A stretch of 64,000 bases of DNA from Cyanobacteria bacterium SIG26. GTDB taxonomy: Bacteria > Cyanobacteriota > Vampirovibrionia > Gastranaerophilales > Gastranaerophilaceae. Positions 11,783-29,454 of this stretch are shown here, piece by piece. The position numbers were made by a program, and so were the translations under genes. The notes beneath the pieces were generated by a model. That model ran no database searches and was not told the origin of the DNA. It saw only the letters and a list, made by a program, of their open reading frames with translations. Location: contig SUTS01000008.1 of NCBI GenBank assembly GCA_015152555.1, forward strand, positions 8,779 through 72,778, in the 5' to 3' direction. Within the stretch, counting starts at the first letter, position 1, and every line of letters begins with the position of its first letter.

Positions 11783-12736
11783 TTACATTATTAATCCCCA
11801 TTTATCGCCAATAAGTCCCTCCCACGTTTCTTCCAATATTCTGGTCAGATCAGCATCTATATTCTTGGGGTTTGGTCTAGATTTTAATCTTAAAGTATTA
11901 TAATCCATACAGTCTAATATTATCCTTGCAAATTCTTCAGCAAATGTTTCCATTAAAGATGTTTGCCCGTATTTACTTGTTGTTCTTGATAATATAATTC
12001 TTATTCCATCAAGAATGTGTGGATTATAAACAGGATTTCCATTTTTATCATTTATTTTTCTTCGGAGTTTATTCATTAAGGATTCGGTAGCTGGATTGAA
12101 TTTATACGCCGGATCAGGGAAAAACGACCCATATTTTTTATATAATTTATGTGCATGTAAATTATGCGCATATTCATGTATAAAACATTGCATAAAGTGT
12201 TCATACGAGTTTGACGGGTCAGTATTTAATGATTTTTCCATGTGATTTTCCCAATCATAATCTAAATTATAAACAATTGTTCTGGCTGGAGAACCTCCAC
12301 CGTGAGGATTTGGAGCCGGATAATGACAAGCTAGAATACTTGAGTCTCCCATACTTTCTATTCCTATTTTTCTTGGCAGTACAAGATTTAATTGCCTAAA
12401 CATTTCATTTGTATGAAATGAGCCGTATGCAACCACTTGATTCATTTTTTTAGAACCACGAGAAAAATTTGCAGGGATACCCAATGAAGCAAAATAATTT
12501 TCAACAGCTTTGGGAAGACCCGGCTCCATAGCAGCTCTGATATGCTTTCGTAATAGTTTTTGATAAACAAATTTATTGACTAGGTTTTCTCCACCAGTAA
12601 AATAAACACTTGAACCTTTCTCGTAAATACTTTTTGTGTATTTATCAGATGTCGGAATGTCCTTAGTAACTGGTATTGTTTTTTTACTATTTGTTGTCGG
12701 ATTAAAAACCCTTGCTTGTATTGGTGTTATATACAT
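11783..12736 (-). CDS. Predicted zincin metallopeptidase with FKG-type leader
   Basis: The protein has 317 residues. The zinc motif is HEYAH (187-191), preceded by a hydrophobic Cys-Phe-Ile. A downstream METFAEEFA (about 262-270) is placed like the glutamate helix of gluzincin-like peptidases. It matches no family I can name. The N terminus starts MYITPIQAR and reaches VYFTG at 44-48, the shared leader layout of this region. There is no signal peptide or transmembrane segment, so any export would be non-Sec. It is the last gene of a three-gene leftward unit (ankyrin, acidic repeat protein, zincin) with gaps of 22 and 17 bp. Confidence 0.75.
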   Translation of the reverse strand: MYITPIQARVFNPTTNSKKTIPVTKDIPTSDKYTKSIYEKGSSVYFTGGENLVNKFVYQKLLRKHIRAAMEPGLPKAVENYFASLGIPANFSRGSKKMNQVVAYGSFHTNEMFRQLNLVLPRKIGIESMGDSSILACHYPAPNPHGGGSPARTIVYNLDYDWENHMEKSLNTDPSNSYEHFMQCFIHEYAHNLHAHKLYKKYGSFFPDPAYKFNPATESLMNKLRRKINDKNGNPVYNPHILDGIRIILSRTTSKYGQTSLMETFAEEFARIILDCMDYNTLRLKSRPNPKNIDADLTRILEETWEGLIGDKWGLIM

Positions 12737-12753
12737 AATTTATACCTTTAAAC

Positions 12754-13350
12754 TTATAAAATATCAGATATATCAATATCTATATCAGGTTCAATCTCAG
12801 GCTCAATTTCTATTTCCGGTTCAAATTCAATCTCAGATTCAATTTCAATCTCAGGTTCTATTTCCGGTTCTATTTCAATATCTGGTTTAATATCAGAATC
12901 TACTTCATTATCTATATCAGCATCAAATTCATCGGTTTCTGAATTGTTTATTTCTTCGGAAGCCTCAATGTTTTGGTTTTCATCTGTCATATCTATTTCA
13001 TCTTTGGTTTGTTCTGTGTTTTCAGTAGTTTTTGAGGCATCTTTGTTTCCTTTAAATTTATTAACTGTAGATTTCGCGCCCTCTATACCTGTCCCCATTG
13101 CGACACCAGAGGTTACACCTTCTACTGCAGCATTGCCTGTATTTGCATTTTTGGGATTAGATTGTGCACCGTTGCCATACATATTTTCAACGTGTTCAAT
13201 AATAATGGTTTGATCTTTTTCAAGGCTTGGTGTAAAAGAATCTCCACTCATTATTCCTCCTCCGTTTCGAATATTTTGAGTAAGAGCATTTATCCTGTCA
13301 GTCATACCTCTAAATGGTACCACTCTTGTTGTGTAAAAATTAACCTTCAT
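12754..13350 (-). CDS. Acidic low-complexity protein with short leader
   Basis: The 198 residues look mostly disordered. The N terminus reaches VPFRG at residues 11-15, a short version of the shared leader. A Gly/Ala-rich segment around residues 70-90 is weakly hydrophobic. The second half is dominated by Asp, Glu and Ile, ending in a run of Glu-Ile/Pro-Glu units. I do not recognise a domain. Such acidic tails often bind basic proteins or metal, but this is a guess. It lies between the ankyrin and zincin genes in the same operon. Confidence 0.7.
   Translation of the reverse strand: MKVNFYTTRVVPFRGMTDRINALTQNIRNGGGIMSGDSFTPSLEKDQTIIIEHVENMYGNGAQSNPKNANTGNAAVEGVTSGVAMGTGIEGAKSTVNKFKGNKDASKTTENTEQTKDEIDMTDENQNIEASEEINNSETDEFDADIDNEVDSDIKPDIEIEPEIEPEIEIESEIEFEPEIEIEPEIEPDIDIDISDIL
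12766..12896 (-). repeat. Imperfect short tandem repeats encoding an acidic tail
   Basis: About ten imperfect units built on TCAGGTTCAATTTC or TCCGGTTCTATTTC, with a 12- or 18-base period, code for the Glu-Ile/Pro tail of the acidic protein. The period keeps the reading frame, so unit number can change without frameshift. Confidence 0.7.
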
Positions 13351-13372: not shown

Positions 13373-15568
13373 TTACCCGCCAAAACCTAGTGTTAATGCT
13401 GTTTTAATTAATTTTTTAATTGTTCGTTTTGTTTGTTTTTCATCTTGGTGTTCAACTACACTATCAAAAAGTTCTTTATATTTGTTTTGTGATCGTGCTA
13501 CTTTTTTATTATAAACTTCTTGATATTTTTCGAAATTTTTTTCTTTATTTTCTAGTTTTGATAATATAGTTTGTCTGGTTTTTGTTTCTCCTGCTCGATA
13601 TGAAACATATTCGACGCCATCTTTTAAATAATTGTTTATCTTTAGATATTCGTCAGATAAGTTTTTGATATTTTTATCTAAGTATTTTTCTTTAATATAT
13701 GTATGATTATTTAATAATGCTGTTGCGTATTCTTTAATTTTTTCAAGAAAATGGCCTGACGTAAACATTTGAACGAAAGTTCCAACCAGTGGTATTTTTG
13801 AACCTTTAGGATTCTTTTTTCGTAAGGCTTGGAGTTTTTCAGACACATCAATTCTATAATTTTTTAGAATTACATCAATTGATCTGTATGCGTTCAATAC
13901 TTTTTCTTCTTCTTTTTTTAGTTCTTTATACGCCATCGTAATTCCTGTATCAAGATCTGATGCAGAAGCAATGATTTCATCAATTTTTTTTGTTGTAAGT
14001 TTGATTTTTTGATCTAATACCTTTTTGTTATAATCTGGAACAAAATCCTCGGGGTTTCTGATATCAAAGCCAGTAAATGTTACTTGTTTTGCATTTTTTG
14101 CGGCTTTTTTATACCAGCTATTGTATTTTTCATATAGTTCAAAACAATCTGCTACAGTTTTGTTATTAGGTGTTTTTGAATCTTGTATACCTCGTTCGGT
14201 TAATGCTGTAACCATTTTTTTATTACCTAATAATGCGTAGTGTTGTATTGGAGTATAACCTTTTGTATTGATTATCGCTGTGTTTGGCTTATATTTTAGT
14301 ATTTCGTCTATTTGTTTTGAGTCTGAGAGATAAAACATTGCAGAATTCCCAAGCTTATCCGTTTTATTAGGGTTTGCTCCTGCTTCTAAAAGCATTGAAA
14401 AATATTCAAAATCATTCTTTTTAAGAGAGTTTATTAAGTAATTTCTGTAATTAGGATCTGCTCCACCATGTAATAAAAATGCTCTTATATTATTATTTTG
14501 AGCGTAATCTAGCGGAACGTAATCTTTATTATCTTTAATATTACAATCTGCGCCTGCCGTTACAAATAAGGCTACAATATTCAAATTATTAGCCTTGACA
14601 GTATTATGTAAAAGGGTACTTCCTGTTGGTAATACCACATCAGGGTTTGCTTTATTATCTAGTAACAAGCCAATTAATTTGGCTGTTCTTGCATATGCTA
14701 ATGGTGGCAACTTTTTCTTATCTATAGCATTTACATCTGCACCTTTTTGCAATAAATATTTTGAATTTTCAAAATTTCCATTGTTTATATTTTGATGTAA
14801 AGGAGTTGTCCCCTTTTTATCTTGAAGATTTATTTCTGCGCCATTATCAACAATCCATTTTAACGTAGGTAATGTACTTGCATTATAAATTGCAGTACGA
14901 CCGTTTTTATCTTTATAATTTACTCCGACATCATATTTTTTTAAAATCTCTGCTATTTCTAAATTGTTTTCTCCAATGGCACGATGCAAGTGGGTCGTAT
15001 ATTTGTCTACATTTGTGTTTGGATTAACCCCATGCTCTAAATATGCTTCTAACGTTTTGGGAAAATTGTAAACCATTGCATAAGGACTATTACCAATACA
15101 ATCTTCGATATAAGGGGAAGCACCTTTTTCAAGTAACATTGATGTAATAACTGGTTTATCTACAACCTTATGAAGTGCAGTTTGTTCCAAATCATCAACA
15201 CTGTTCACATCAAGGTTTTTATGTTTTAAATATTCTTCAATAATCCGTTTGTTTCCTCTTGAACAAGCTAATACAAATGGAGATTTACCATGTTTGTTCT
15301 TTTGGTTTGGATTAAAGTCTTTATCCAAAAGATATTTTGTGATTTCAAACTGATTATATCTAGCCGCAGAATGCAACAAAGTCTCTTGTTTGTCATTCAC
15401 AAGATTTAAATTATTTATTTGTGAAACTTCGTCAATTTTACCTTCTTTAATCAGTTGTTCAATATCTGAAAAAAGCATGGTTCGAGCTGAAAAAGTGGTT
15501 TCCTGTTTTTTATTAAAGTATGTGTAATTGTTTCTATTTACCCCTAAATAGATTGGTGAGACCCGCAT
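13373..15568 (-). CDS. Ankyrin-repeat protein with FKG-type leader
   Basis: The protein has 731 residues. The N terminus starts MRVSPIYLG and reaches TTFSA at 24-28, matching the leader of its neighbours. About 12-13 ankyrin repeats follow (about 60-460), with clear units such as TLLHSAARYNQ, TPLHQNINNGN and TALHKV. The C-terminal 250 residues are a charged helical, coiled-coil-rich region. Ankyrin solenoids bind proteins; in host-associated bacteria they are common in effectors, but no secretion signal is visible. GGGGT precedes the ATG. It is the first gene of the leftward unit and is divergent from the AAA+ operon across 149 bp. Confidence 0.88.
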   Translation of the reverse strand: MRVSPIYLGVNRNNYTYFNKKQETTFSARTMLFSDIEQLIKEGKIDEVSQINNLNLVNDKQETLLHSAARYNQFEITKYLLDKDFNPNQKNKHGKSPFVLACSRGNKRIIEEYLKHKNLDVNSVDDLEQTALHKVVDKPVITSMLLEKGASPYIEDCIGNSPYAMVYNFPKTLEAYLEHGVNPNTNVDKYTTHLHRAIGENNLEIAEILKKYDVGVNYKDKNGRTAIYNASTLPTLKWIVDNGAEINLQDKKGTTPLHQNINNGNFENSKYLLQKGADVNAIDKKKLPPLAYARTAKLIGLLLDNKANPDVVLPTGSTLLHNTVKANNLNIVALFVTAGADCNIKDNKDYVPLDYAQNNNIRAFLLHGGADPNYRNYLINSLKKNDFEYFSMLLEAGANPNKTDKLGNSAMFYLSDSKQIDEILKYKPNTAIINTKGYTPIQHYALLGNKKMVTALTERGIQDSKTPNNKTVADCFELYEKYNSWYKKAAKNAKQVTFTGFDIRNPEDFVPDYNKKVLDQKIKLTTKKIDEIIASASDLDTGITMAYKELKKEEEKVLNAYRSIDVILKNYRIDVSEKLQALRKKNPKGSKIPLVGTFVQMFTSGHFLEKIKEYATALLNNHTYIKEKYLDKNIKNLSDEYLKINNYLKDGVEYVSYRAGETKTRQTILSKLENKEKNFEKYQEVYNKKVARSQNKYKELFDSVVEHQDEKQTKRTIKKLIKTALTLGFGG

Positions 15569-15717: not shown

Positions 15718-17097
15718 ATGTTTATACAAGCGGTTAATTTTGCGACACCGTCATATGGTGCTACAGCTATACAACAAAGAAGGTCTCAATTAAATTATTC
15801 TGTTACTAATTCTGCATTATCTTTCAAAGGGGATAATATACCTAAGATTCCGGAATTTGATTATGAAGCAGTGAAACAAAAAGAATTGGATAAAAGAACC
15901 AAGATAGAAAAACTTTGCTCTTGGGGCAAAACGGCGGCTGAAGAACGAGCTAAGCAACAATTAATAGGTTTTCATACTAGTGTACAGTCACTTATCTTAC
16001 AAAAAGAACAAACCATACAAGCTCACAAAAAAGTTCTTCAAGAAAAAGAGAAAGCTGTTGCAGCATTAAAAGATGCAAAAAGATTATTAGAAGAAAAGTT
16101 AAAAGATGCTGAAGCTAATCACGAAAAAGATATAGTAATTATTGAACTTAGAGCTGAATTAGAGGCTACGAAAAAACTAGAAGCTCAAAAAACTAATGAT
16201 CTTGCGCTTGATAAAGCTAAATTTGAAAGAATAAAACAAGAACAAGAAAACATAAGTCGTCGTGATAAAGATAAAGGTTGGAATAAGGTTGCCGGTTATG
16301 AAAACTTAAAACAAGAAATAGAGGAAGGTTTTTTAAATAAATTTGCAATTGAAAAAGCTGGAGATGATGTTGTTATGCCAAATGGTATACTTCTTTATGG
16401 TCCATCTGGAACCGGTAAAACTTATTTTGCCAACGCTTTAGCTGAACAGGCAAAATGTCATTTTGAGAAAATTGATACATTACAAGATGATGATGATATT
16501 ATTGCTGATCTTCGCAAAACATTAAGAAATGCGAAAAAGAATTACAATCAAGATAATAAAAGAACGATTGTATTACTTGATGATTTTAATTCAATTGCGG
16601 AATTAACAGATGAGGATAAAGCTGAATTAGCTCAAGATGGTATGGATATTTCTTATACAAATGTCGGTCAGCTTTCTAATATATTGCAAAATTGCGCTGA
16701 TAAATTTAAAACAACGATTTTAATGACAACTAATTTCCCAAGAAGAATAGATAAAGAGGTAATGACTGCTAATAACATACCTCATCAAATCTTCTTAGGT
16801 CCACCACAAACTGAAGATCTTGCAGCAATGTTTGAATACCATTTAGATGGTGTTACTGACCAAGATATTGATTATGAAAAATTAGCAAAAGTCGTAAGCA
16901 AAGCGCAAGAAGACAATGAGGCTTATAGCGCTCAAGGGGTTGTAAATATTATCAATAAAGCTAAAGCAAATTGTCCAAATTCTAAAATAACTGAACCAGA
17001 TTTGCTAAAAGCAATTAAGCAAACTCCGCCAGATATAACAAAGGCGCAGTATGCGAAATTTATTGATGATTTAGATGCGATTGTTAATAAAAATTAA
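15718..17097 (+). CDS. AAA+ ATPase with coiled coil and FKG leader
   Basis: The protein has 459 residues. The leader ends in LSFKG (34-38). A long coiled coil (about 70-190) follows, then one AAA+ module of the FtsH/ATAD3 type. Walker A is GPSGTGKT (228-235), Walker B is IVLLDDF with D288-D289, and sensor 1 is N339 in MTTNF. Two Arg (342-343) follow in NFPRRID; the helical lid domain runs to the end. No protease domain or membrane segment is present. It should form an ATP-driven hexamer that remodels proteins. AGGAGGG sets the start. It begins a rightward operon with two genes, 23 bp and then 1 bp apart, the last of which encodes a degenerate copy of this ATPase. Confidence 0.88.
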   Translation: MFIQAVNFATPSYGATAIQQRRSQLNYSVTNSALSFKGDNIPKIPEFDYEAVKQKELDKRTKIEKLCSWGKTAAEERAKQQLIGFHTSVQSLILQKEQTIQAHKKVLQEKEKAVAALKDAKRLLEEKLKDAEANHEKDIVIIELRAELEATKKLEAQKTNDLALDKAKFERIKQEQENISRRDKDKGWNKVAGYENLKQEIEEGFLNKFAIEKAGDDVVMPNGILLYGPSGTGKTYFANALAEQAKCHFEKIDTLQDDDDIIADLRKTLRNAKKNYNQDNKRTIVLLDDFNSIAELTDEDKAELAQDGMDISYTNVGQLSNILQNCADKFKTTILMTTNFPRRIDKEVMTANNIPHQIFLGPPQTEDLAAMFEYHLDGVTDQDIDYEKLAKVVSKAQEDNEAYSAQGVVNIINKAKANCPNSKITEPDLLKAIKQTPPDITKAQYAKFIDDLDAIVNKN

Positions 17098-17120
17098 AAA
17101 AGAATTTAATGGGGTTAAAT

Positions 17121-18821
17121 ATGAATATTAAAACTAACAACTTTTTGCAAGTAACAAATCCAAATATAAGAACAAATGTTTCAAATCCTGCGTTTGTGGG
17201 TATTTTTTCAAAAAATAAAGATGCTAATGTTGATTCAAAAAAAGACGTAAAAAAAGATGAGTTTGTAAAAAAAGCGCCTAAAGAAATTTCTGTAAAACAA
17301 AAAATTTTGTATGGTGTTGCTGCTGCGGGAACAACAGTAGCGGGTATATTCGGAATAAAGAAACTTAAATCTCCAAAAAATATAGATACAGATGGATTAA
17401 AAAAAGCAGGGCAAAAACTTAAACCTATAGTCGAAGGTACAACAACGGCTAAACCAAAATCTGTGGATGTTGATTCTAAAAATCCTGTGGTTGAACCAAA
17501 TCCGAAAACTCCGCAGACTCCAAAGTCTGAAGCTCAGCAACCAAAACCTGAAGATACGCCTAGAAAAACAGACGTTGAATCGGTAAAACCTGAAGTACAG
17601 ACTCCAAAACCTCCAAAAGTAAAAGAAGTTCCAATGACTTTAGATGAGGTTTTTGAAAAATATCCGCCAAGAAATTACGATTTGGCTCAGGAGATTTATC
17701 CTGTGTTGCACAAAAATGCTGAAACTTTAGGTCTTAAACCTGAACATTACGAAGAAATTTTATCAAATATAAACAAAAATAATAAAGAGTTTATGAAAAC
17801 TGAAGGTTTTGATTTAATCGCAAGTAATATGCCTAAATTACGTGATATTTTAACCGAGTCAGAGGCTAATAAAGAAATTGGTTCGATTGTTTCGAGTCTG
17901 GATGTTGAAAATAAAAATGTTTTTGCAAGGGTATTAAACGATCCGGAAACTTTTAAAGTTGATTTCGTTGAAGATCTGGTTACTTATTTAAAATTTTTAA
18001 GACCAAAGAATGAAAAATATACCTTTGAAAAAGCTTTGCCATTGTTAGAAAAATATGAAAAAGATTTAAGATTGGTTGATGCTGAACGTTTTTCTTTGGC
18101 TTTAAATAGTATGAATGCCGATATTGAAGACATTGTACCTCTATTAGCAAAAGAGAACTCGTTCCCTAATTTAAAAAAATATCGTATGTTAATGAATACA
18201 ACAAAAAATAATAAAGAATGTCTAATTCCGTTGATTCAAAATATGGCTAAATTTGGTTTGGATTCTGAAAATGCCGCGGTTACTTTAAAACATTTAAATA
18301 ATTTCCAAAAAAAATCTATTATTGCAGTTGCAGATAATATTGCGAAGTTAGATGAATTAAAACTCGATAAGCTTGATGTTTTAACAAGATTAAATACAGA
18401 GGATTCTTCTAAAATTTTCAATCGTATTATAAATAATGCCGGAAAATATAAACTAAAAGAAGCTTCAGATGTTTCATATTTTGTTGAAAAATTTGAGGGC
18501 AAAGATTTAGATTTTATTGAAAATGATGTTTTACCTAAACTGAAAGAATATGCTGAACCGTTAAGGATTAAGTATGCAGAAGATATTGCAGAAATTGCAG
18601 GTAATCTTACTCCAAAAACGCTTGATAATGTCGAAATAGTTGCTCAATATGCACAGAAGTATGGAAATAATGTCAATTACATTGCTTTATTGGGTGGCTT
18701 GACAGAAGATAATGCTAAAAATCTTACAAAAGTTTTGGATAATATTGAAAGAACCGGACTTTGGGATGATGTGTTGGTTTGTAGTGAAGATTTCAAATAT
18801 TTGTTAGATAAAGGGTTATAA
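17121..18821 (+). CDS. Membrane-anchored helical-repeat protein of unknown function
   Basis: The protein has 566 residues. The leader reaches PAFVG at 23-27. One hydrophobic segment (about 60-78, ILYGVAAAGTTVAGIFGI) could be a membrane anchor. A Pro/Lys/Glu-rich flexible linker follows (about 100-170). The remaining 390 residues look all-helical, with repeated blocks resembling a HEAT-like solenoid. I do not recognise a family. An ATG at 17109 is in frame, but GGGG sits six bases before the ATG at 17121, so I prefer the latter. It is encoded between the intact and degenerate AAA+ genes, so it may be their adaptor or membrane anchor. Confidence 0.75.
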   Translation: MNIKTNNFLQVTNPNIRTNVSNPAFVGIFSKNKDANVDSKKDVKKDEFVKKAPKEISVKQKILYGVAAAGTTVAGIFGIKKLKSPKNIDTDGLKKAGQKLKPIVEGTTTAKPKSVDVDSKNPVVEPNPKTPQTPKSEAQQPKPEDTPRKTDVESVKPEVQTPKPPKVKEVPMTLDEVFEKYPPRNYDLAQEIYPVLHKNAETLGLKPEHYEEILSNINKNNKEFMKTEGFDLIASNMPKLRDILTESEANKEIGSIVSSLDVENKNVFARVLNDPETFKVDFVEDLVTYLKFLRPKNEKYTFEKALPLLEKYEKDLRLVDAERFSLALNSMNADIEDIVPLLAKENSFPNLKKYRMLMNTTKNNKECLIPLIQNMAKFGLDSENAAVTLKHLNNFQKKSIIAVADNIAKLDELKLDKLDVLTRLNTEDSSKIFNRIINNAGKYKLKEASDVSYFVEKFEGKDLDFIENDVLPKLKEYAEPLRIKYAEDIAEIAGNLTPKTLDNVEIVAQYAQKYGNNVNYIALLGGLTEDNAKNLTKVLDNIERTGLWDDVLVCSEDFKYLLDKGL

Positions 18822-18822
18822 T

Positions 18823-20082
18823 ATGCGAATTTCACCAATAGTAAATTTTTCATACACTAAATGTAATCACAACAATAATGTTCCACAAAAAAGAAATGCT
18901 CAGGTTAGTTTCAAAGGGGAGCCAAATGAGACTAATATAGAGTCGTTTCTTGCTCTAGCGTTCAAGAAATTTTTCGAAAAATGTGAAGATGCTATGATTG
19001 ATGGAGTTGCCAGGAGATATATGTTTGTAAAAAACTATGAGAATTTATTATTAAAAGAATTTCCAGATGATTATGAATATCGACAGGAATTAAGTCGTCG
19101 TATAAAGCGTATGGAATCGGAATTCAAAGATAAAGATATTAAAATTAATGGGCTGGTAAATAAAATAGATGATTTAGGTACAGAAATTGAAAATATTAAT
19201 ACAGAAAATTCCGGTATAAAAGAGTCTATTAACAACACTAATTTAAAAAATTCTTTTGAAAATCAACGAGCAAAGATAGTTTTGCGAGATGTTCAACGTC
19301 AAAAGAAAATATATGATGCACTTGATGAACAGTATCTTGCGCTTAGCCGTTTAGAGAATAAAGTTTATCCTAATGGGATTATGATAAAGGGAACACAATC
19401 TCAAGAAGAGATTGAAAAAACTCTTAAATATTTGCAAGATAAAGGGTGTCTATTACTTCGAACAAGTTTTAGTAAAAATGATCAAAAACAAGCTGCAAAA
19501 GAGATGGTTGGCCTATTAAAACGAATTAGAGAAGGTGATAAGCACGGGATTTTATATATAGAAGATTTTAGGGAACATACGGTACCTAGCGAAAAAAATA
19601 GGCGCTTTATAGATAAGTTAAAAGCGCATTTGTGTTCTTGTTCAAAGGATTCTAATGCAACGATTTTGATTTTTGAAAATAATCCGCAAGATATTGATGA
19701 AATTTTATTGAAGGAGCATCGTTTTGGGACCAAAATAGATGTTTCAGATATAAAACATGTTTTTGAACCGGGATTTGTGCCAAAGAAAGACGGGTATACA
19801 TTTTATTATGGGCAAAATGAAAATGATACTGTAGATTTGTATCTCGGAAATTTTGGTCATAATAGAGAGATTTTGTGGGTAGATGAGCCGGATCAGGATA
19901 AGGCCTTAAAGGTGCTTGAAAACATTGATTTAGTTAAATCTCAAGAAAAATTTAAGGATATAAAATATTTACAGATGAGAAAGCCAGTGAAAGTATATAA
20001 AATCTATGAAGATTTTTACACATTAAATCATAAGACAGCGGATTATCATCCAATAATTGAGAAAAAACTTAATATTAAATAA
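18823..20082 (+). CDS. Degenerate AAA+ ATPase paralogue with FKG leader
   Basis: The protein has 419 residues. The leader starts MRISPI and ends VSFKG (28-32). A coiled coil occupies about 75-180. Then the AAA+ order of the gene two upstream recurs: PNGIMIKG aligns with PNGILLYG, but the P-loop is replaced by GTQSQEEIEK (190-199) with no GKT. The Walker B-like ILYIEDF keeps E247-D248, and TILIFENNPQDID aligns with sensor 1 (TILMTTNFPRRID). So nucleotide binding is probably lost while the fold remains. It is probably a structural partner of the intact ATPase. It starts one base after the upstream stop codon, indicating coupled translation. Confidence 0.78.
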   Translation: MRISPIVNFSYTKCNHNNNVPQKRNAQVSFKGEPNETNIESFLALAFKKFFEKCEDAMIDGVARRYMFVKNYENLLLKEFPDDYEYRQELSRRIKRMESEFKDKDIKINGLVNKIDDLGTEIENINTENSGIKESINNTNLKNSFENQRAKIVLRDVQRQKKIYDALDEQYLALSRLENKVYPNGIMIKGTQSQEEIEKTLKYLQDKGCLLLRTSFSKNDQKQAAKEMVGLLKRIREGDKHGILYIEDFREHTVPSEKNRRFIDKLKAHLCSCSKDSNATILIFENNPQDIDEILLKEHRFGTKIDVSDIKHVFEPGFVPKKDGYTFYYGQNENDTVDLYLGNFGHNREILWVDEPDQDKALKVLENIDLVKSQEKFKDIKYLQMRKPVKVYKIYEDFYTLNHKTADYHPIIEKKLNIK

Positions 20083-20207: not shown

Positions 20208-20263
20208 TGTAGGTCAAGCTTTGCTTGACATTATTTTTTTGTCAGGCGTTGCCTGACCTACAA
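20208..20263. repeat. Nested inverted repeat (GTAGGTCA type)
   Basis: TTGTAGGTCAAGCTTTGCTTGAC is followed after a T-rich spacer by an inverted counterpart ending GACCTACAA. Each arm is itself a small hairpin. Related GTAGGTTGGG..CCCAAC units occur at 701-717, 20811 and 22653. It may be a non-autonomous repeat, and may also terminate the flanking convergent genes. Confidence 0.6.
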
Positions 20264-20272
20264 ACTTGCTTA

Positions 20273-20737
20273 CTAATATTGTGGCATTTTTTTAAAATAC
20301 GACAAAAAAGTTTCTTTCTTGTATTTTATATTTCTAAGTTTTTTAGCAATATAAAATACAGAATCATCAGTGCAGGGATGTTTATCTACCATGTGATAAG
20401 TTGTTGGTGGCAAAAAGAGATTCCTTATTCGTTCAAAAATATTTTTTGGAGCTGGCTTAGAATCTAACCAAATCCTCGCCCCTTGATGACGTTCAATCAT
20501 AACTCTTGCTTTAACATCATTTTCTATAAAAAAATTATCAACTTTTGCTAAATCCCTTAATTCTTTTATTACAGTTTTTTCTAAAAACGAACAAGGTACT
20601 TCTTGAAAGGGTGCAAATTTGCATCTAACTACTTTTCTTAATCCCTTAAAACTTTGGTTATTTTGGGGTTCGTAATTATTATATGTTTTTATAGGCTTTT
20701 TAGTATATATATTATTGTTTATTGGCTGTGCTTGCAT
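20273..20737 (-). CDS. Small unknown protein with FKG leader
   Basis: The protein has 154 residues. The leader starts MQAQPI, is rich in Asn, Tyr and Lys, and ends QSFKG at 28-32. The rest is a compact, basic, mixed alpha/beta-looking domain with several Cys and His (RCKFAPFQEVPC; HMVDKHPC) that I do not recognise. There is no signal peptide. A longer in-frame start exists at 20785, but AAAGGA lies eight bases before the ATG at 20737 and the extra 16 residues are hydrophobic promoter-like sequence, so 20737 is the better start. It is convergent with the degenerate AAA+ gene. Confidence 0.72.
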   Translation of the reverse strand: MQAQPINNNIYTKKPIKTYNNYEPQNNQSFKGLRKVVRCKFAPFQEVPCSFLEKTVIKELRDLAKVDNFFIENDVKARVMIERHQGARIWLDSKPAPKNIFERIRNLFLPPTTYHMVDKHPCTDDSVFYIAKKLRNIKYKKETFLSYFKKMPQY

Positions 20738-20810
20738 AATAAGATCCTTTTTAATAATTATAATATAAAAAATAAAAAATCCCAAATTGAACTTTCTATG
20801 GACTTAGTTA

Positions 20811-23068: not shown

Positions 23069-24055
23069 TTATCTTATTTTTTGCCAAATTAGTGGCAATT
23101 TACAATTGTTTTCTTTGTTTAAACCAGATACAATATTATTATAGATAGGTTTAAATTTACCTTGTTTGTTTAATGCTTCAAATAGCAAATGTTTAGATGA
23201 ATATCGTAAATTTCGTACTGGATCAAACAGTATTGTTTCTTCTTCAGGTATTGATTTATCTGCAATAAATAGATGTTCTTGTAAATGATTTCCCAAAACT
23301 AATATTCCGCCTACCTCTAATTTGTTATAAATTTTATTGTTTATTAAATCATTTAAAACTTCTTGTTTATTTAAATTTAAATCAGGCTTCTCCCCATATC
23401 CGATAATGCCAGTTAAATCATTCTTTATTACATGATAAAAAGCATTTCTAAAAAATATAGCACCAACTTTACCATTGTGAGAATTTAATTCAATATTTTT
23501 AATATTATTAATATCATCTTTAACAAAATGAATATTATTATTTATTGTATATTTCGGAATAAAATATTTTTGCGGGAATAACTCAACATCATCGAAAGCT
23601 AAACAATAAACAGAATCGGTTACATTATCTATTTCTTCATTAGGTTTAGGTATTTCAGTAAAATGTTTATAAAATTTTTTAGTTAATTGTTCTTGTTTTT
23701 TATTCTTAACATCATTTATTAAAAAACCATCAGACATTTGAGGATGAACAGCATAAACACCTCTTTGGGCATAATTTATAGCTTCTGAACAAGGATCAAT
23801 TGAGTAAATTTGATAATTGTTTTTATTTTTCAAAAATGTATTTAAGGATAATGCTTCTTCTCCATTTGAACCTGCATAGACCATTATATTAGTACCTTCA
23901 GGAAAAGTCCTATTAATAATTTGAGCCGATTTTTCTAAAACAGGATGGTCTAAATAAAAAGCAGTACTTGTTGACAGTCCAGTTTCTTTATCAAGTTTAT
24001 TATAACTAGAAAAACTAATCATATTATGGTTTAGATTTATATTATTAATTCTCAT
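23069..24055 (-). CDS. CheR-like SAM methyltransferase with FKG-type leader
   Basis: The protein has 328 residues. The fold is that of the CheR catalytic domain. YAGSNGEEALSL (about 60-71) is the SAM-binding glycine loop followed by the Glu-Glu seen in CheR. IYSIDPCSEAINYAQRGVY matches its second motif. VGAIFFRNAFYHVI corresponds to the CheR Asn-containing motif. The N-terminal CheR helical domain is missing and no chemotaxis gene is nearby, so receptor methylation should not be assumed. The first residues (MRINNINLN..MISFSS) resemble the leader of the other proteins in this region. It stands alone between two repeat-rich gaps. Confidence 0.75.
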   Translation of the reverse strand: MRINNINLNHNMISFSSYNKLDKETGLSTSTAFYLDHPVLEKSAQIINRTFPEGTNIMVYAGSNGEEALSLNTFLKNKNNYQIYSIDPCSEAINYAQRGVYAVHPQMSDGFLINDVKNKKQEQLTKKFYKHFTEIPKPNEEIDNVTDSVYCLAFDDVELFPQKYFIPKYTINNNIHFVKDDINNIKNIELNSHNGKVGAIFFRNAFYHVIKNDLTGIIGYGEKPDLNLNKQEVLNDLINNKIYNKLEVGGILVLGNHLQEHLFIADKSIPEEETILFDPVRNLRYSSKHLLFEALNKQGKFKPIYNNIVSGLNKENNCKLPLIWQKIR

Positions 24056-24957: not shown

Positions 24958-26271
24958 ATGAAAAGATATACGATTAACAAATTAATTCAATGGAAAAATG
25001 ATCCAAACAAGAAGCCTTTGATTATACGTGGGGCAAGACAAGTTGGTAAAACTTGGCTAATGAAAGAGTTTGGAAAAACTCAATACAAAAAAACTATTTA
25101 TATAAATTTTGAACTAGAAGATTTAATGCGGGAGCATTTTTCTAAGGACTTGAATACAAAGCGAATAATTGAGGGTTTAGAATTAGAATATTCTAAAATT
25201 GATCCTCAAAATACTTTAATTATACTTGACGAAATTCAAGAGTGCCCTAAAGCTTTAACTGCTTTAAAATATTTTTATGAAAACAACCCTGAATATCAAA
25301 TAGTAGCAGCAGGTAGCCTTCTCGGCGTTGCTATTCATGAACAAGTGTCATTTCCTGTTGGCAAAGTTGATTTCATAGATTTATATCCATTGTCTTTCTA
25401 TGAATTTTTAGATGCAAATGGTGAAGAAAAATTTGTTGAATTGCTTCAAAATCCAAATAATGAAAATATTAAAACATTTAAACCTAAATATATTGAATGG
25501 TTAAAAAAATATTATTATATCGGCGGAATGCCTGAAGTTGTAAATAACTTTATTAATACTAATGATTTTCAAAAAGCAAGAAAAATCCAAGAAAACATAT
25601 TAGATGCATATACAAGAGATTTCTCAAAGCATATTTCTTCTACCGGTAAGTTGAAAATAGATTTACTTTGGGAGTCTATTCCTAATCAGTTAACTCAAGA
25701 AAGTAAAAAGTTTGTTTATAAAAAAATTAAACAAGGTGCAAGAGCGGATGAATTTGAAGAAGCTTTATCTTGGTTGATAAATTGCGGTCTTGTTTATAAA
25801 ATAAATCGAATTTCGAAACCAGCTATGCCAATTAAAGCTTATGAAGATACAAAAGCTTTCAAATTATTTATTTTAGATGTTGGATTACTATGCGCATTAA
25901 GCAAATTGCCAGCAAGAACTTTGATTGATGGCGATAAGATTTTTACAGAATTTAATGGCGCATTGGCTGAGCAATATGTTTTACAACAATTAAAAACTCT
26001 TGAAGATATGGGAATTGCATATTGGATAAGCAAATCCGGTAACGCTGAAATTGATTTTGTGATCCAAAACAATGGATATGTGATTCCTGTTGAAGTTAAA
26101 GCTAATACAAATTTACAAGCAAAATCGTTAAAAGTTTATAGAGAAAAATTTGAACCAGAAATAAGTATAAGAACAAGCCTTGCAGATTTTGAGATAAATA
26201 ACGGACTCTACAATATTCCGTTATTTATGGCAGGAAAGTTTGATGAAATTTTGAATCCTAATGAGGTATAA
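24958..26271 (+). CDS. AAA_14/DUF4143 ATPase
   Basis: The 437 residues show the full two-part family layout. An N-terminal AAA ATPase has Walker A GARQVGKT (25-32) and Walker B LIILDEIQE (D91-E92). A winged-helix-like middle follows. The C-terminal DUF4143 domain contains EIDFVI..VIPVEVKA (about 360-380), which fits a PD-(D/E)xK nuclease-like core. Members are widespread in prokaryotes and their role is poorly defined; some have been proposed to act on nucleic acids. GAGAGGG precedes the ATG. The stop codon is two bases before the methyltransferase start, so it is encoded in the same operon as the RM genes, which is unusual and may mean a helper or extra defence component. Confidence 0.9.
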   Translation: MKRYTINKLIQWKNDPNKKPLIIRGARQVGKTWLMKEFGKTQYKKTIYINFELEDLMREHFSKDLNTKRIIEGLELEYSKIDPQNTLIILDEIQECPKALTALKYFYENNPEYQIVAAGSLLGVAIHEQVSFPVGKVDFIDLYPLSFYEFLDANGEEKFVELLQNPNNENIKTFKPKYIEWLKKYYYIGGMPEVVNNFINTNDFQKARKIQENILDAYTRDFSKHISSTGKLKIDLLWESIPNQLTQESKKFVYKKIKQGARADEFEEALSWLINCGLVYKINRISKPAMPIKAYEDTKAFKLFILDVGLLCALSKLPARTLIDGDKIFTEFNGALAEQYVLQQLKTLEDMGIAYWISKSGNAEIDFVIQNNGYVIPVEVKANTNLQAKSLKVYREKFEPEISIRTSLADFEINNGLYNIPLFMAGKFDEILNPNEV

Positions 26272-26273
26272 GA

Positions 26274-28340
26274 ATGGCAAGAAAGAAATATGAAGTATCA
26301 GAAGAAATTTTGCAAAGAGGTATATTAACTAATCCTGATAAAATTGGTAAATATACTTATTATAATATTGGTAATACAATGATAGGAGCTTTAAGGGATA
26401 ATAATTTAATACCCAATAAAGATTATAAAAATGAAGATAGAAAGCCTGATGGACTAATTGTAGATAATACTAAAAGAGTAATCGCTGTAATCGAAAATAA
26501 AAATCTTGCTAAGTATAAAACAGCGAGTTTAAAAGCTTCTGCAACAAAACAAGCTCTTGAAGTTGCTCAAGATCTAGGAGCAAAATTTGTAATTAGTACG
26601 GATAGTGTTAATAGTCAATGGTATAGTGCGTTTGATAATAAACCAATATTAAATATTGATGGAAGTGAATTAAAAGAAGTTTTTGGGATTACAACATGCA
26701 ACACACCTAAAACTGAAAAACTAATTGAACTATTAGATAATACTATAAACAAAAAATGTAGACAAATAACGCAAATACAGGAGGTTGACCCAACTCCATT
26801 AGCATATGCTATATGGCAAAAAATATATAAAGCAACAACAGCTACTCCTGAAAATTGCTTATATACATTTGTTGAAATTTTTATATTTAAGTATTTAAGC
26901 GACTTAAATATACTTGATGAATTGTATCAGTACAATACATTATTGGGAATGTATAAAAAATCAAAAGAAGATAATGTTTTATCATATTATGCTAAAACAA
27001 TAAGACCTGAAATTAAAAAATTATTCCCAGAAGATGATGATAAAACAACAATTATAAATGGAACAATTTTTGTAAATGATACAACAGGTGATTGTTATAC
27101 TGGTTATGGCAAAACTTTTCGCACCATCTTAGAAATGTTTAAAGATGTCGAATTAAAAAATATTGATAAGGATTTTAAATCAAAAATATTTGAAGTATTT
27201 TTCAAAAAAGATACTCAAAAAGGTGGTTTGGGACAATATTTTACACCGCTCAAAGTCGTACAACAAATTGTGAATATGGCAGATATAAAGCCAAACATGA
27301 GAATTTGCGACCCTGCATGTGGTGTAGGAAAATTCTTGTTAGACGCTATTTCAAGAGATATTAATAGATTTTATGAAATTAAAGATGACGAGATAATAAA
27401 TCATATAACAATTGAAGGTTTTGATAAAGGTTTTACAAAAGATAGTGAGAGAACTATTATTCTTGCAAAAGCAAACATGATGATATATTTTTCAGATTTA
27501 ATAAAAAATCATCCTGATATGACTCAAAAATTTTCAAAATTATTTAATAAATCTTTTCACCTTAGAACATCCGTATTAGGTACACTTGATTATATTCCAA
27601 CGGAAAAACAAAAATACGATTTAATACTTTCTAATCCGCCATATGTTGGTGCTACAGACGTTTATAAAAAAGAAATTGACGGTAATGCAAAATTAAAAAA
27701 ATATTATAATAAAAATGGAACTGGCTTAGAAAGTTTATTCATTGAATGGATAATAAGAAGTCTTAAAGATGATGGGCAAGCATTTATAATTGTACCTGAA
27801 GGCTTTATGTATAGACTTCAAGATGTAGATTTAAGACAATTTATAATAGATGAATGTATTATAAATGGGATTATTTCTTTACCCAAAAACACTTTTTTCT
27901 CTACAGAGAAGAAAACTTATATTATTGCTTTAACTAAGAAAAAGCAATCTGAAAAAGTTCGTCAGATTTCACCTATATTTACTTATTTATGTTCATCTAC
28001 CGGCGAAACATTAGATGTTAACCGATTTGATACACAAGAAAATGATTTAGCTGATGCAGCATATGAGTACCATAGTTTTAAGGGTAATAAATCTTTGTAT
28101 GCTGAAAGATTGGGTAATGGTAAAATAGAAAATAAAAGACTTAAAGTTGTTAATATTGATTGGTTTGAAACCAATATTAAAGTAGATTGGATAATTGAAA
28201 ATTTATGGACTGAAGACGAAAAAATAGAGCTCGGAATAAAAGACGAAGATAATATCATGACATCTGAGGAATTATGCATATTTATTGATAATGTTATTGC
28301 GGACTTATCTTCATATAAAGAGGCTGTAAATAATGTGTAA
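26274..28340 (+). CDS. Fused nuclease/N6-adenine methyltransferase (type IIB/IIG-like RM subunit)
   Basis: The protein has 688 residues. The N-terminal 130 residues look like an HsdR_N/PD-(D/E)xK endonuclease: P58-D59 in RKPDGLIVD, then E74-N-K76. A helical connector leads to an HsdM-like methylase. This has GQYFTP (about 335), motif I DPACGVGKF (346-354) and the catalytic NPPY (454-457). A single chain with cutting and methylating domains plus a separate specificity gene matches BcgI-type systems. No hsdR gene is present. The following gene overlaps by eight bases. DNA base composition is even more AT-rich than the surroundings, which agrees with horizontal transfer. Confidence 0.86.
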   Translation: MARKKYEVSEEILQRGILTNPDKIGKYTYYNIGNTMIGALRDNNLIPNKDYKNEDRKPDGLIVDNTKRVIAVIENKNLAKYKTASLKASATKQALEVAQDLGAKFVISTDSVNSQWYSAFDNKPILNIDGSELKEVFGITTCNTPKTEKLIELLDNTINKKCRQITQIQEVDPTPLAYAIWQKIYKATTATPENCLYTFVEIFIFKYLSDLNILDELYQYNTLLGMYKKSKEDNVLSYYAKTIRPEIKKLFPEDDDKTTIINGTIFVNDTTGDCYTGYGKTFRTILEMFKDVELKNIDKDFKSKIFEVFFKKDTQKGGLGQYFTPLKVVQQIVNMADIKPNMRICDPACGVGKFLLDAISRDINRFYEIKDDEIINHITIEGFDKGFTKDSERTIILAKANMMIYFSDLIKNHPDMTQKFSKLFNKSFHLRTSVLGTLDYIPTEKQKYDLILSNPPYVGATDVYKKEIDGNAKLKKYYNKNGTGLESLFIEWIIRSLKDDGQAFIIVPEGFMYRLQDVDLRQFIIDECIINGIISLPKNTFFSTEKKTYIIALTKKKQSEKVRQISPIFTYLCSSTGETLDVNRFDTQENDLADAAYEYHSFKGNKSLYAERLGNGKIENKRLKVVNIDWFETNIKVDWIIENLWTEDEKIELGIKDEDNIMTSEELCIFIDNVIADLSSYKEAVNNV

Positions 28341-29454
28341 AAATGTAGTAATAAAATCAATAAAAGAAATATTTAATCATAAGAGAGGCAATAGCAAATA
28401 CACAAAAGCATATTGCGATAAGTGCAAAGGTGAATATGAGGTATACACAGGTACAACTATTGGAACTTTTGCTAAAATTAATAAATATGATTATGATTAC
28501 CCACTGCTAACATATACTACTGATGGTTATGCTGGAGAATTGTCTGTTATCGAAGGTAAATTCTCTATTGGTGGACATAGAGCAATTTTAATACCAAAGG
28601 ACAAAAATATAAATTTACAGTATTTTAGATATGTATTACAACCATTATTTAGAAATGCAAAACGGGATTGTGCTATACCTACAATTAATTGGCAATTAAT
28701 AAGGGATATAAAAGTTGAAATTCCAATAGATAAAAATGGCAATTACGATTATGATTTTCAAGAAAAAATTGCCCAACGTTATAAAATAATTGAAAAAGAA
28801 AAAAACAAATTAGTTTATGATAAGAATATTTTAAAAAAAAGTCAATTATCGATAAATATTGAAAATTATGAATATAATTTGTTGAAAGTTAAAGAAATAT
28901 TTGATTTAAGTATTTCCACAAATAGTTCAAAATTCACAATCGGCTTTATTAATGAAAATCAAGGAGACATTCCTGTTTATGGTGCTGTAAATACTGAAAA
29001 TTATGCAAGTTATGGATATGTAAAAGACAATATATTTATCGAAGAAAATAAAAATGGCAAAATCACAAAAACTCCAGTTAGATATTTTGAAAATTGCCTT
29101 ACGTATAATATAGATGGAGAAGGTGCATGTGGATATGTATTTTACCGAACAGGTCGATTTAGTCTTTCAGAAAAAGTCCGCCCATTAATCATATTTGATG
29201 AATATAAAGATAAATTAGATCCTATATACTTGAAATATGTACTCCATCCTTTATTTTTATCGAAAGTCAGAGGAAGAAAAATAAACAAAACAATAATTCA
29301 GGATTTGCCAATCCCTATACCTGTAAAGGAAAATGGCGAATTTGATTTGAAAGCACAAAAAGAAATTTCTGAAAAATATAAGAAACTAGAAGCTATTAAA
29401 GAAAAGGTTATCAATGAAATTGATAAAGTTTTAAGTATAACAGTAGAAATTTAA
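28333..29454 (+). CDS. RM specificity subunit with two target-recognition domains
   Basis: The protein has 373 residues. Two half-repeats each hold a target-recognition domain followed by a helical spacer. Half 1 covers about 1-175 and half 2 about 185-373. Both show a KxIF start, a Thr-x-Gly/Ala-x-x-Gly-tyrosine core, YFRYVLQPLF or YLKYVLHPLF, and a final EKIAQRYK or KEISEKYK helix. This is HsdS architecture and gives a bipartite recognition site. The length suits the small S subunits of BcgI-like enzymes (about 340) as well as type I. Translation is coupled to the methyltransferase by an eight-base overlap. Confidence 0.9.
   Translation: MCKNVVIKSIKEIFNHKRGNSKYTKAYCDKCKGEYEVYTGTTIGTFAKINKYDYDYPLLTYTTDGYAGELSVIEGKFSIGGHRAILIPKDKNINLQYFRYVLQPLFRNAKRDCAIPTINWQLIRDIKVEIPIDKNGNYDYDFQEKIAQRYKIIEKEKNKLVYDKNILKKSQLSINIENYEYNLLKVKEIFDLSISTNSSKFTIGFINENQGDIPVYGAVNTENYASYGYVKDNIFIEENKNGKITKTPVRYFENCLTYNIDGEGACGYVFYRTGRFSLSEKVRPLIIFDEYKDKLDPIYLKYVLHPLFLSKVRGRKINKTIIQDLPIPIPVKENGEFDLKAQKEISEKYKKLEAIKEKVINEIDKVLSITVEI

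Follow-up and report, generated by a model that had tools for sequence, protein, structure and literature searches.

What does a AAA+ protein that has lost its nucleotide-binding site do next to a relative that has kept it? The window, as we call the whole 64,000-nucleotide stretch of DNA analysed here, belongs to a 1.86 Mb draft genome and raises this question through an operon of three genes on the forward strand. The first (15718..17097, +) encodes a 459-residue ATP-binding AAA+ protein (Pfam AAA, E 1.7e-16, and motif columns), the second (17109..18821, +) a 570-residue helical-repeat protein and the third (18823..20082, +) a 419-residue pseudo-AAA+ protein. The genes are separated by 11 bases and 1 base, respectively, and a terminator-like hairpin, GTCAAGCTTTGCTTGAC followed by ATTATTTTTT (20213..20229, +), closes the operon about 130 bases past the end of the third reading frame. 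A preliminary description of the 419-residue protein had paired it with the upstream ATPase as the degenerate member of a mixed ring, with a structural role. The pairing of an intact with a degenerate AAA+ protein is borne out by profile comparison, by structure prediction and by its conservation across the bacterial order to which the host belongs. The proposed role is a different matter, and the analysis below points to a probably catalytic one.

An AAA+ fold without Walker A

The relation of the 419-residue protein to AAA+ ATPases escapes single-sequence tools: compared with the 459-residue ATPase by BLASTP, the protein aligns at 19% identity with a marginal E of 0.051, the Pfam AAA score of 18.3 bits lies under the cut-off of 21.2, and an NCBIfam search gave no match. 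A profile of its orthologues, aligned to the ATPase family with hhalign, nevertheless gives E 4e-13 and a probability of 97.9% over 147 columns, an AAA+ match without Walker A in which PNGI strand, Walker B strand and sensor 1 are each paired with their counterpart, as is the helix before the arginine finger. All elements of the ordered alignment suggested earlier are found: a leader ending in VSFKG, a long coiled coil (model helix 84-176), the PNGI strand (185-189) with GTQSQEEIEK in the place of the P-loop, an ILYIED strand (242-246) and a sensor-1-like strand (279-284) followed by NNPQDID. When the orthologue profile was run against the sequences of the PDB, the matches were all weak and mostly coiled-coil.

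Six sequences went into an AlphaFold model whose mean pLDDT is 77.7 (80-90 for most of the core). Its strands lie at residues 185-189, 210-214, 242-246, 279-284 and 301-306, separated by helices as expected, and make up the five-stranded alpha/beta/alpha core of ASCE proteins; an ASCE fold is predicted within residues 180-320, where the preliminary description had placed the AAA+ domain. Foldseek matches the model to the D1 domain of p97 with E 4e-7, and VIA-align places model residues 157-310 on p97 207-371 (Z 15.9, rmsd 2.2 Å, 149 residues). Profile and model together confirm the 419-residue protein as one with a predicted, classic AAA-like fold that has no Walker A. The C-terminal helical lid is missing, and residues 316-419 are instead predicted to form a beta-rich module that has no Pfam match. 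The same module (19768-20079; DGYT..VDLYLG.FG..LW) recurs across the order in proteins where no AAA+ core can be recognised, e.g. L021:7397-8857.

Walker A (GxxxxGK[ST]), with its Gly-Lys-Thr, is absent from the 419-residue protein, which has GTQSQEEI, and from every orthologue. The acidic residues of ILYIED had been thought to be kept, and here the preliminary description does not hold for a catalytic pair: Walker B reads LYIEDF in the window and EN, DN or KN in the orthologues. The sensor-1 position is scattered among the orthologues, and both Walker B and sensor 1 are scattered among the wider set of P-loop-less proteins, hereafter pseudo-subunits. Most pseudo-subunits fall into one large old clade, so the two proteins of the window are distant paralogues and not recent duplicates. 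We also considered a decaying pseudogene and rejected it, since orthologues of about 35% identity retain an open frame, R300 and the C-terminal module.

A finger arginine in the degenerate partner

One feature of the eroded nucleotide site has been kept. The residues H299-R300-F301 are invariant in the orthologues of the 419-residue protein, and in a joint alignment with the ATPases R300-F301 falls on the second arginine finger of classic AAA proteins, within the SRH (R300 codon 19720..19722, +). We take this position to be that of R362 in the established numbering of p97; the p97 superposition, which ends at model residue 310 and p97 residue 371, is consistent with it within one residue. The 459-residue ATPase has a leader ending in LSFKG, a coiled coil, Walker A (GPSGTGKT) and sensor 1 (TTN), and its finger position (MTANNIPHQI) has no arginine, likewise in its orthologues. 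As a positive control, FtsH/CDC48-type proteins in the same loci do have arginine in this column (KRPGRLDRKI and VRAGRFDKTV, L076). That the degenerate member keeps a conserved finger arginine which the intact member has lost suggests a catalytic role in trans. The degenerate status given to this subunit by the preliminary description, which had overlooked R300, stands, and its structural role is probably too weak a reading; "arginine-donating" is probably the better word.

How general is this arrangement? We searched 286 genomes of the order Gastranaerophilales, which are uncultured gut bacteria, and found matches to the 419-residue profile in 68 of them. In a sample of the phylum covering 115 genera, all matches among those listed lie within Gastranaerophilales, and the public records with orthologues are metagenome-assembled genomes of Candidatus Gastranaerophilales or Melainabacteria. 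A literature search found no paper on AAA proteins of this kind from either group. About 90 loci were read, every AAA-like domain was aligned to one profile and the pairing pattern was followed across about 70 loci, with domains counted non-redundantly at 70%. The finger arginine is present in 57 of 62 pseudo-subunits (absent from 5) and in only 17 of 71 P-loop ATPases; the other 54 include that of the window. Intact proteins paired with degenerate ones are widespread in the order. The Fisher values for the association between P-loop loss and the arginine (2e-16 at 70% redundancy, 1e-11 at 50%) ignore kinship and are inflated, and are not to be taken literally. The first set of loci had been retrieved with a pseudo-subunit profile that itself contains the arginine, so a check set was fetched with the ATPase profile; in this partly unbiased test the arginine is present in 26 of 29 pseudo-subunits and absent from 26 of 40 ATPases.

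Phylogeny gives a more modest picture. The trees suggest that the P-loop was lost 3-5 times, with about five origins of pseudo-subunits. The arginine survives in three of these lines, among them the main clade (52 rows). It was not kept in the P-loop-less lines L141/L145 and L066, nor in a degenerate extra domain of L087/L125. When P-loop loss was tested against retention of the arginine by independent contrasts, the result was not significant; there were only three contrasts, too few to decide. Proteins of 624-639 residues in two loci (L087:6844-8718 and L125:9114-11033) contain as many as three degenerate AAA-like domains in tandem, and the arginine is clearly kept in just one of these.

Could the pseudo-subunit be no more than a filler, one that completes a mixed ring or breaks its symmetry and has no part in catalysis? 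Walker A, Walker B and sensor 1 have been lost alike, some clusters, such as those of the L018 type, have an ATPase that retains its own finger, and a few pseudo-subunits (L141, L145, L066) have no arginine, all of which would suit such a role. The ranking of conserved columns speaks against it: despite the erosion of the nucleotide site, the finger arginine is the second best conserved position of the pseudo-subunits (0.92), behind the column of the lysine K267 (0.95) and narrowly before a threonine with which the sensor-1 strand begins (0.90), and most partner ATPases have no finger arginine. We therefore consider a filler unlikely.

The distribution of the arginine within single loci is less tidy than the totals. 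Arginine-bearing pseudo-subunits occur in 65 loci, of which 51 also encode an arginine-less ATPase, and 19 loci hold both finger-bearing and finger-less ATPases. In 10 loci the pseudo-subunit is paired only with arginine-bearing ATPases, and most of the 17 ATPases that keep the arginine still adjoin a pseudo-subunit. Neither partner has it in L141, L145 and L065/L066. One genome (G006; L110, G006:C1:182000-199000) encodes a relative of the window's ATPase that has no finger arginine and no pseudo-subunit in its vicinity; its sensor 1 is altered (SSQ for TTN), and it may be decaying. Conversely, no pseudo-subunit was detected beside a finger-keeping ATPase in G140, which is as a composite-site model predicts. 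In a further group of loci (L018, L020, L057-L064) an extra finger-less ATPase of 699-852 residues, with a glycine/alanine-rich N-terminal region, lies convergently beside the ATPase/pseudo-subunit pair.

A proposed composite ATPase site

Our favoured reading of these sequence patterns, which we think is likely to be right, is that the 419-residue protein is a nucleotide-free AAA+ activator that would give R300 in trans to the finger-less 459-residue ATPase, forming a composite site. The ATPase would bind ATP through its own Walker A, Walker B and sensor 1, and the 419-residue protein would dock on its nucleotide face and insert R300. Hydrolysis would occur only when both proteins meet, making the pseudo-subunit an obligate switch. 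Direct contact between the two is suggested by the shared operon and the complementary motifs, and activation would follow from the same pattern. Protein remodelling is the default activity of classic AAA proteins on their substrates. Walker B of the window's ATPase (VLLDDF) has DD rather than DE, retained in its orthologues, so this enzyme may hydrolyse ATP slowly or only bind it.

Two other readings bear on this proposal. If the window's ATPase, with its DD and no finger, hardly hydrolyses ATP, the pair would be a nucleotide-gated scaffold, an ATP-binding switch and not a motor. The conservation of DD among the orthologues of this ATPase agrees with that, but in the wider family DE is found, together with a sensor-1 asparagine, in most ATPases, and we find such a scaffold very improbable. 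Alternatively, the 419-residue protein could be a regulatory or inhibitory partner that blocks self-assembly of the ATPase or uses its C-terminal module as a ligand sensor, the His-Arg pair serving for binding only. The replacement of the lid by a beta-rich module that a protein of L021, among others, carries without a recognisable AAA+ core would fit this. An inhibitor needs no arginine exactly at the finger position, however, and loss of the ATPase's own finger would not be expected, which makes a regulatory partner quite unlikely in our estimation.

The proposed arginine donor would have a counterpart in animal cells, in Torsin with LAP1, the standard case in which a nucleotide-free AAA+ partner switches on an AAA+ motor. 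Torsin has no arginine finger, and its partners LAP1 and LULL1 are membrane-anchored proteins with a nucleotide-free AAA+ domain that has neither Walker motifs nor the small C-terminal domain and supplies R563 or R449 in trans (PMC4358337, PMC4999309). For Torsin-LULL1 an alternating ring has been argued against (PMC4999309). By analogy, the pair in the window probably completes one active site, as Torsin and LAP1 do. What is shared is a finger-less ATPase and a separate AAA+-fold protein that has no Walker motifs and no lid and carries the arginine, here read from the sequence pattern. The likeness is proposed for the mechanism and not claimed for family membership: Torsin belongs to a Clp/HSP100-like group, whereas the Gastranaerophilales pair matches classic AAA proteins (p97, FtsH, Vps4), and classic-AAA matches dominate the best PDB matches listed, with no LAP1 chain among those by sequence or fold and no TorsinA chain among those by fold. 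Torsin and LAP1 are metazoan proteins of the ER and nuclear envelope; the pair here is bacterial and operon-encoded, no signal peptide was seen, and homology between the two partners can be detected. LAP1 contains a disulfide and lacks the additional beta-rich module of the 419-residue protein, and LAP1 and LULL1 are anchored in the membrane, whereas no transmembrane segment was found in the 419-residue protein, although 16 of 61 relatives have one.

Other AAA+ machines also bear comparison. The p97/CDC48, FtsH and Vps4 proteins share the AAA+-domain fold and sequence of both window proteins, but are mostly homomeric, with P-loop and fingers in one subunit, and the pair here has no protease or N domain. 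Pex1/Pex6, a type II heterohexamer, is likewise a classic-AAA heteromer of active and inactive domains; it forms a double ring, and its inactive domain lies in a subunit that also bears an active one. Clamp loaders and ORC are heteromeric AAA+ assemblies with ATP sites between subunits, in which certain non-catalytic subunits contribute an arginine. They belong to another AAA+ clade, function on DNA and form a fixed pentamer or hexamer, and the window's locus has no DNA-replication context.

In the Gastranaerophilales the arrangement occurs in many species, the partners are still recognisably related, and intermediates exist in the form of finger-keeping ATPases, separate pseudo-subunit origins and clusters with one to three pseudo-subunits; the path from a homomer to an obligate two-part active site is thus directly testable. 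The proteins may also be easier to express than ER-resident ones, and they give a first clue to the mechanism behind a group of genes of gut Gastranaerophilales that lack annotation. The broadest claim would be that these bacterial AAA+ machines with a split active site form a family not described before and apparently restricted to the order, in which ATP binding and arginine have been parted repeatedly between co-encoded paralogues, in convergence with Torsin-LAP1, and the pseudo-subunit or a third protein provides membrane placement; in this full form we regard it as evenly balanced between right and wrong.

Third protein, membrane segments and neighbours

The commonest form in the order is an ATPase followed by a small protein with one transmembrane segment and a pseudo-subunit, or by a pseudo-subunit with its own segment. 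At least one such membrane protein is present in 58 of 68 operons, a share that chance could partly explain, and the segment is found in 16 of 61 pseudo-subunits vs. 5 of 70 ATPases (p 0.004, kinship ignored). In these relatives, the membrane-spanning pseudo-subunit or the small intervening protein would put the motor at the membrane, a placement to which the data point weakly. The only candidate in the window's operon is a weak hydrophobic segment (residues 65-83) in the disordered N-terminal part of the 570-residue protein. Residues 178-570 of this protein are predicted by AlphaFold to form an alpha-solenoid (pLDDT about 90 over residues 180-560), for which a fold search against the PDB found no specific match, and orthologues occupy the same position in four other loci (L014, L015, L016, L098). 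The 570-residue protein is a candidate adaptor or membrane anchor, and may either place the pair at the membrane or select its substrate.

The gene order ATPase, 570-residue protein, 419-residue protein is conserved in four other species, which also share a divergent upstream set on the reverse strand: a 731-residue ankyrin-repeat protein (13373..15568, -; Pfam Ank_2, E 3e-46), a 198-residue acidic protein (12754..13350, -) and a 317-residue protein with an HExxH motif (HEYAH; 11783..12736, -), all three found in the same place in L095-L098. The HExxH motif, present in the window and in L014, L015, L016 and L098, makes this last protein a possible metallopeptidase, and its gene accompanies the ATPase operon in several species beside those for the ankyrin and acidic proteins. 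We also considered an antiphage system. The 459-residue ATPase gives only weak scores against the TRIP13 and IetA models, reflecting general AAA similarity, and a PDC-M72A match of the neighbouring protein falls within its ankyrin repeats, and we make no claim of defence. Elsewhere in the window (24958-29454), an AAA_14/DUF4143-like ATPase is followed by two proteins, one N6-methylase-like and one specificity-like; judged by eye only, the cluster resembles a restriction-modification system with no obvious HsdR.

Finally, the short disordered leader (M.I..I...) that ends in SFKG or similar some 15-40 residues in is found on many unrelated proteins of the genome, for example those of 15718-20082 and its neighbours, 23069-24055 and 20273-20785. 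A strict pattern matches 4 of the 54 genes of the window, one of these matches probably being a signal peptide, vs. 0.4% of internal windows. Looser variants (PFRG, TFSA, SFKS) occur in further genes, and the leader may be a sorting tag.
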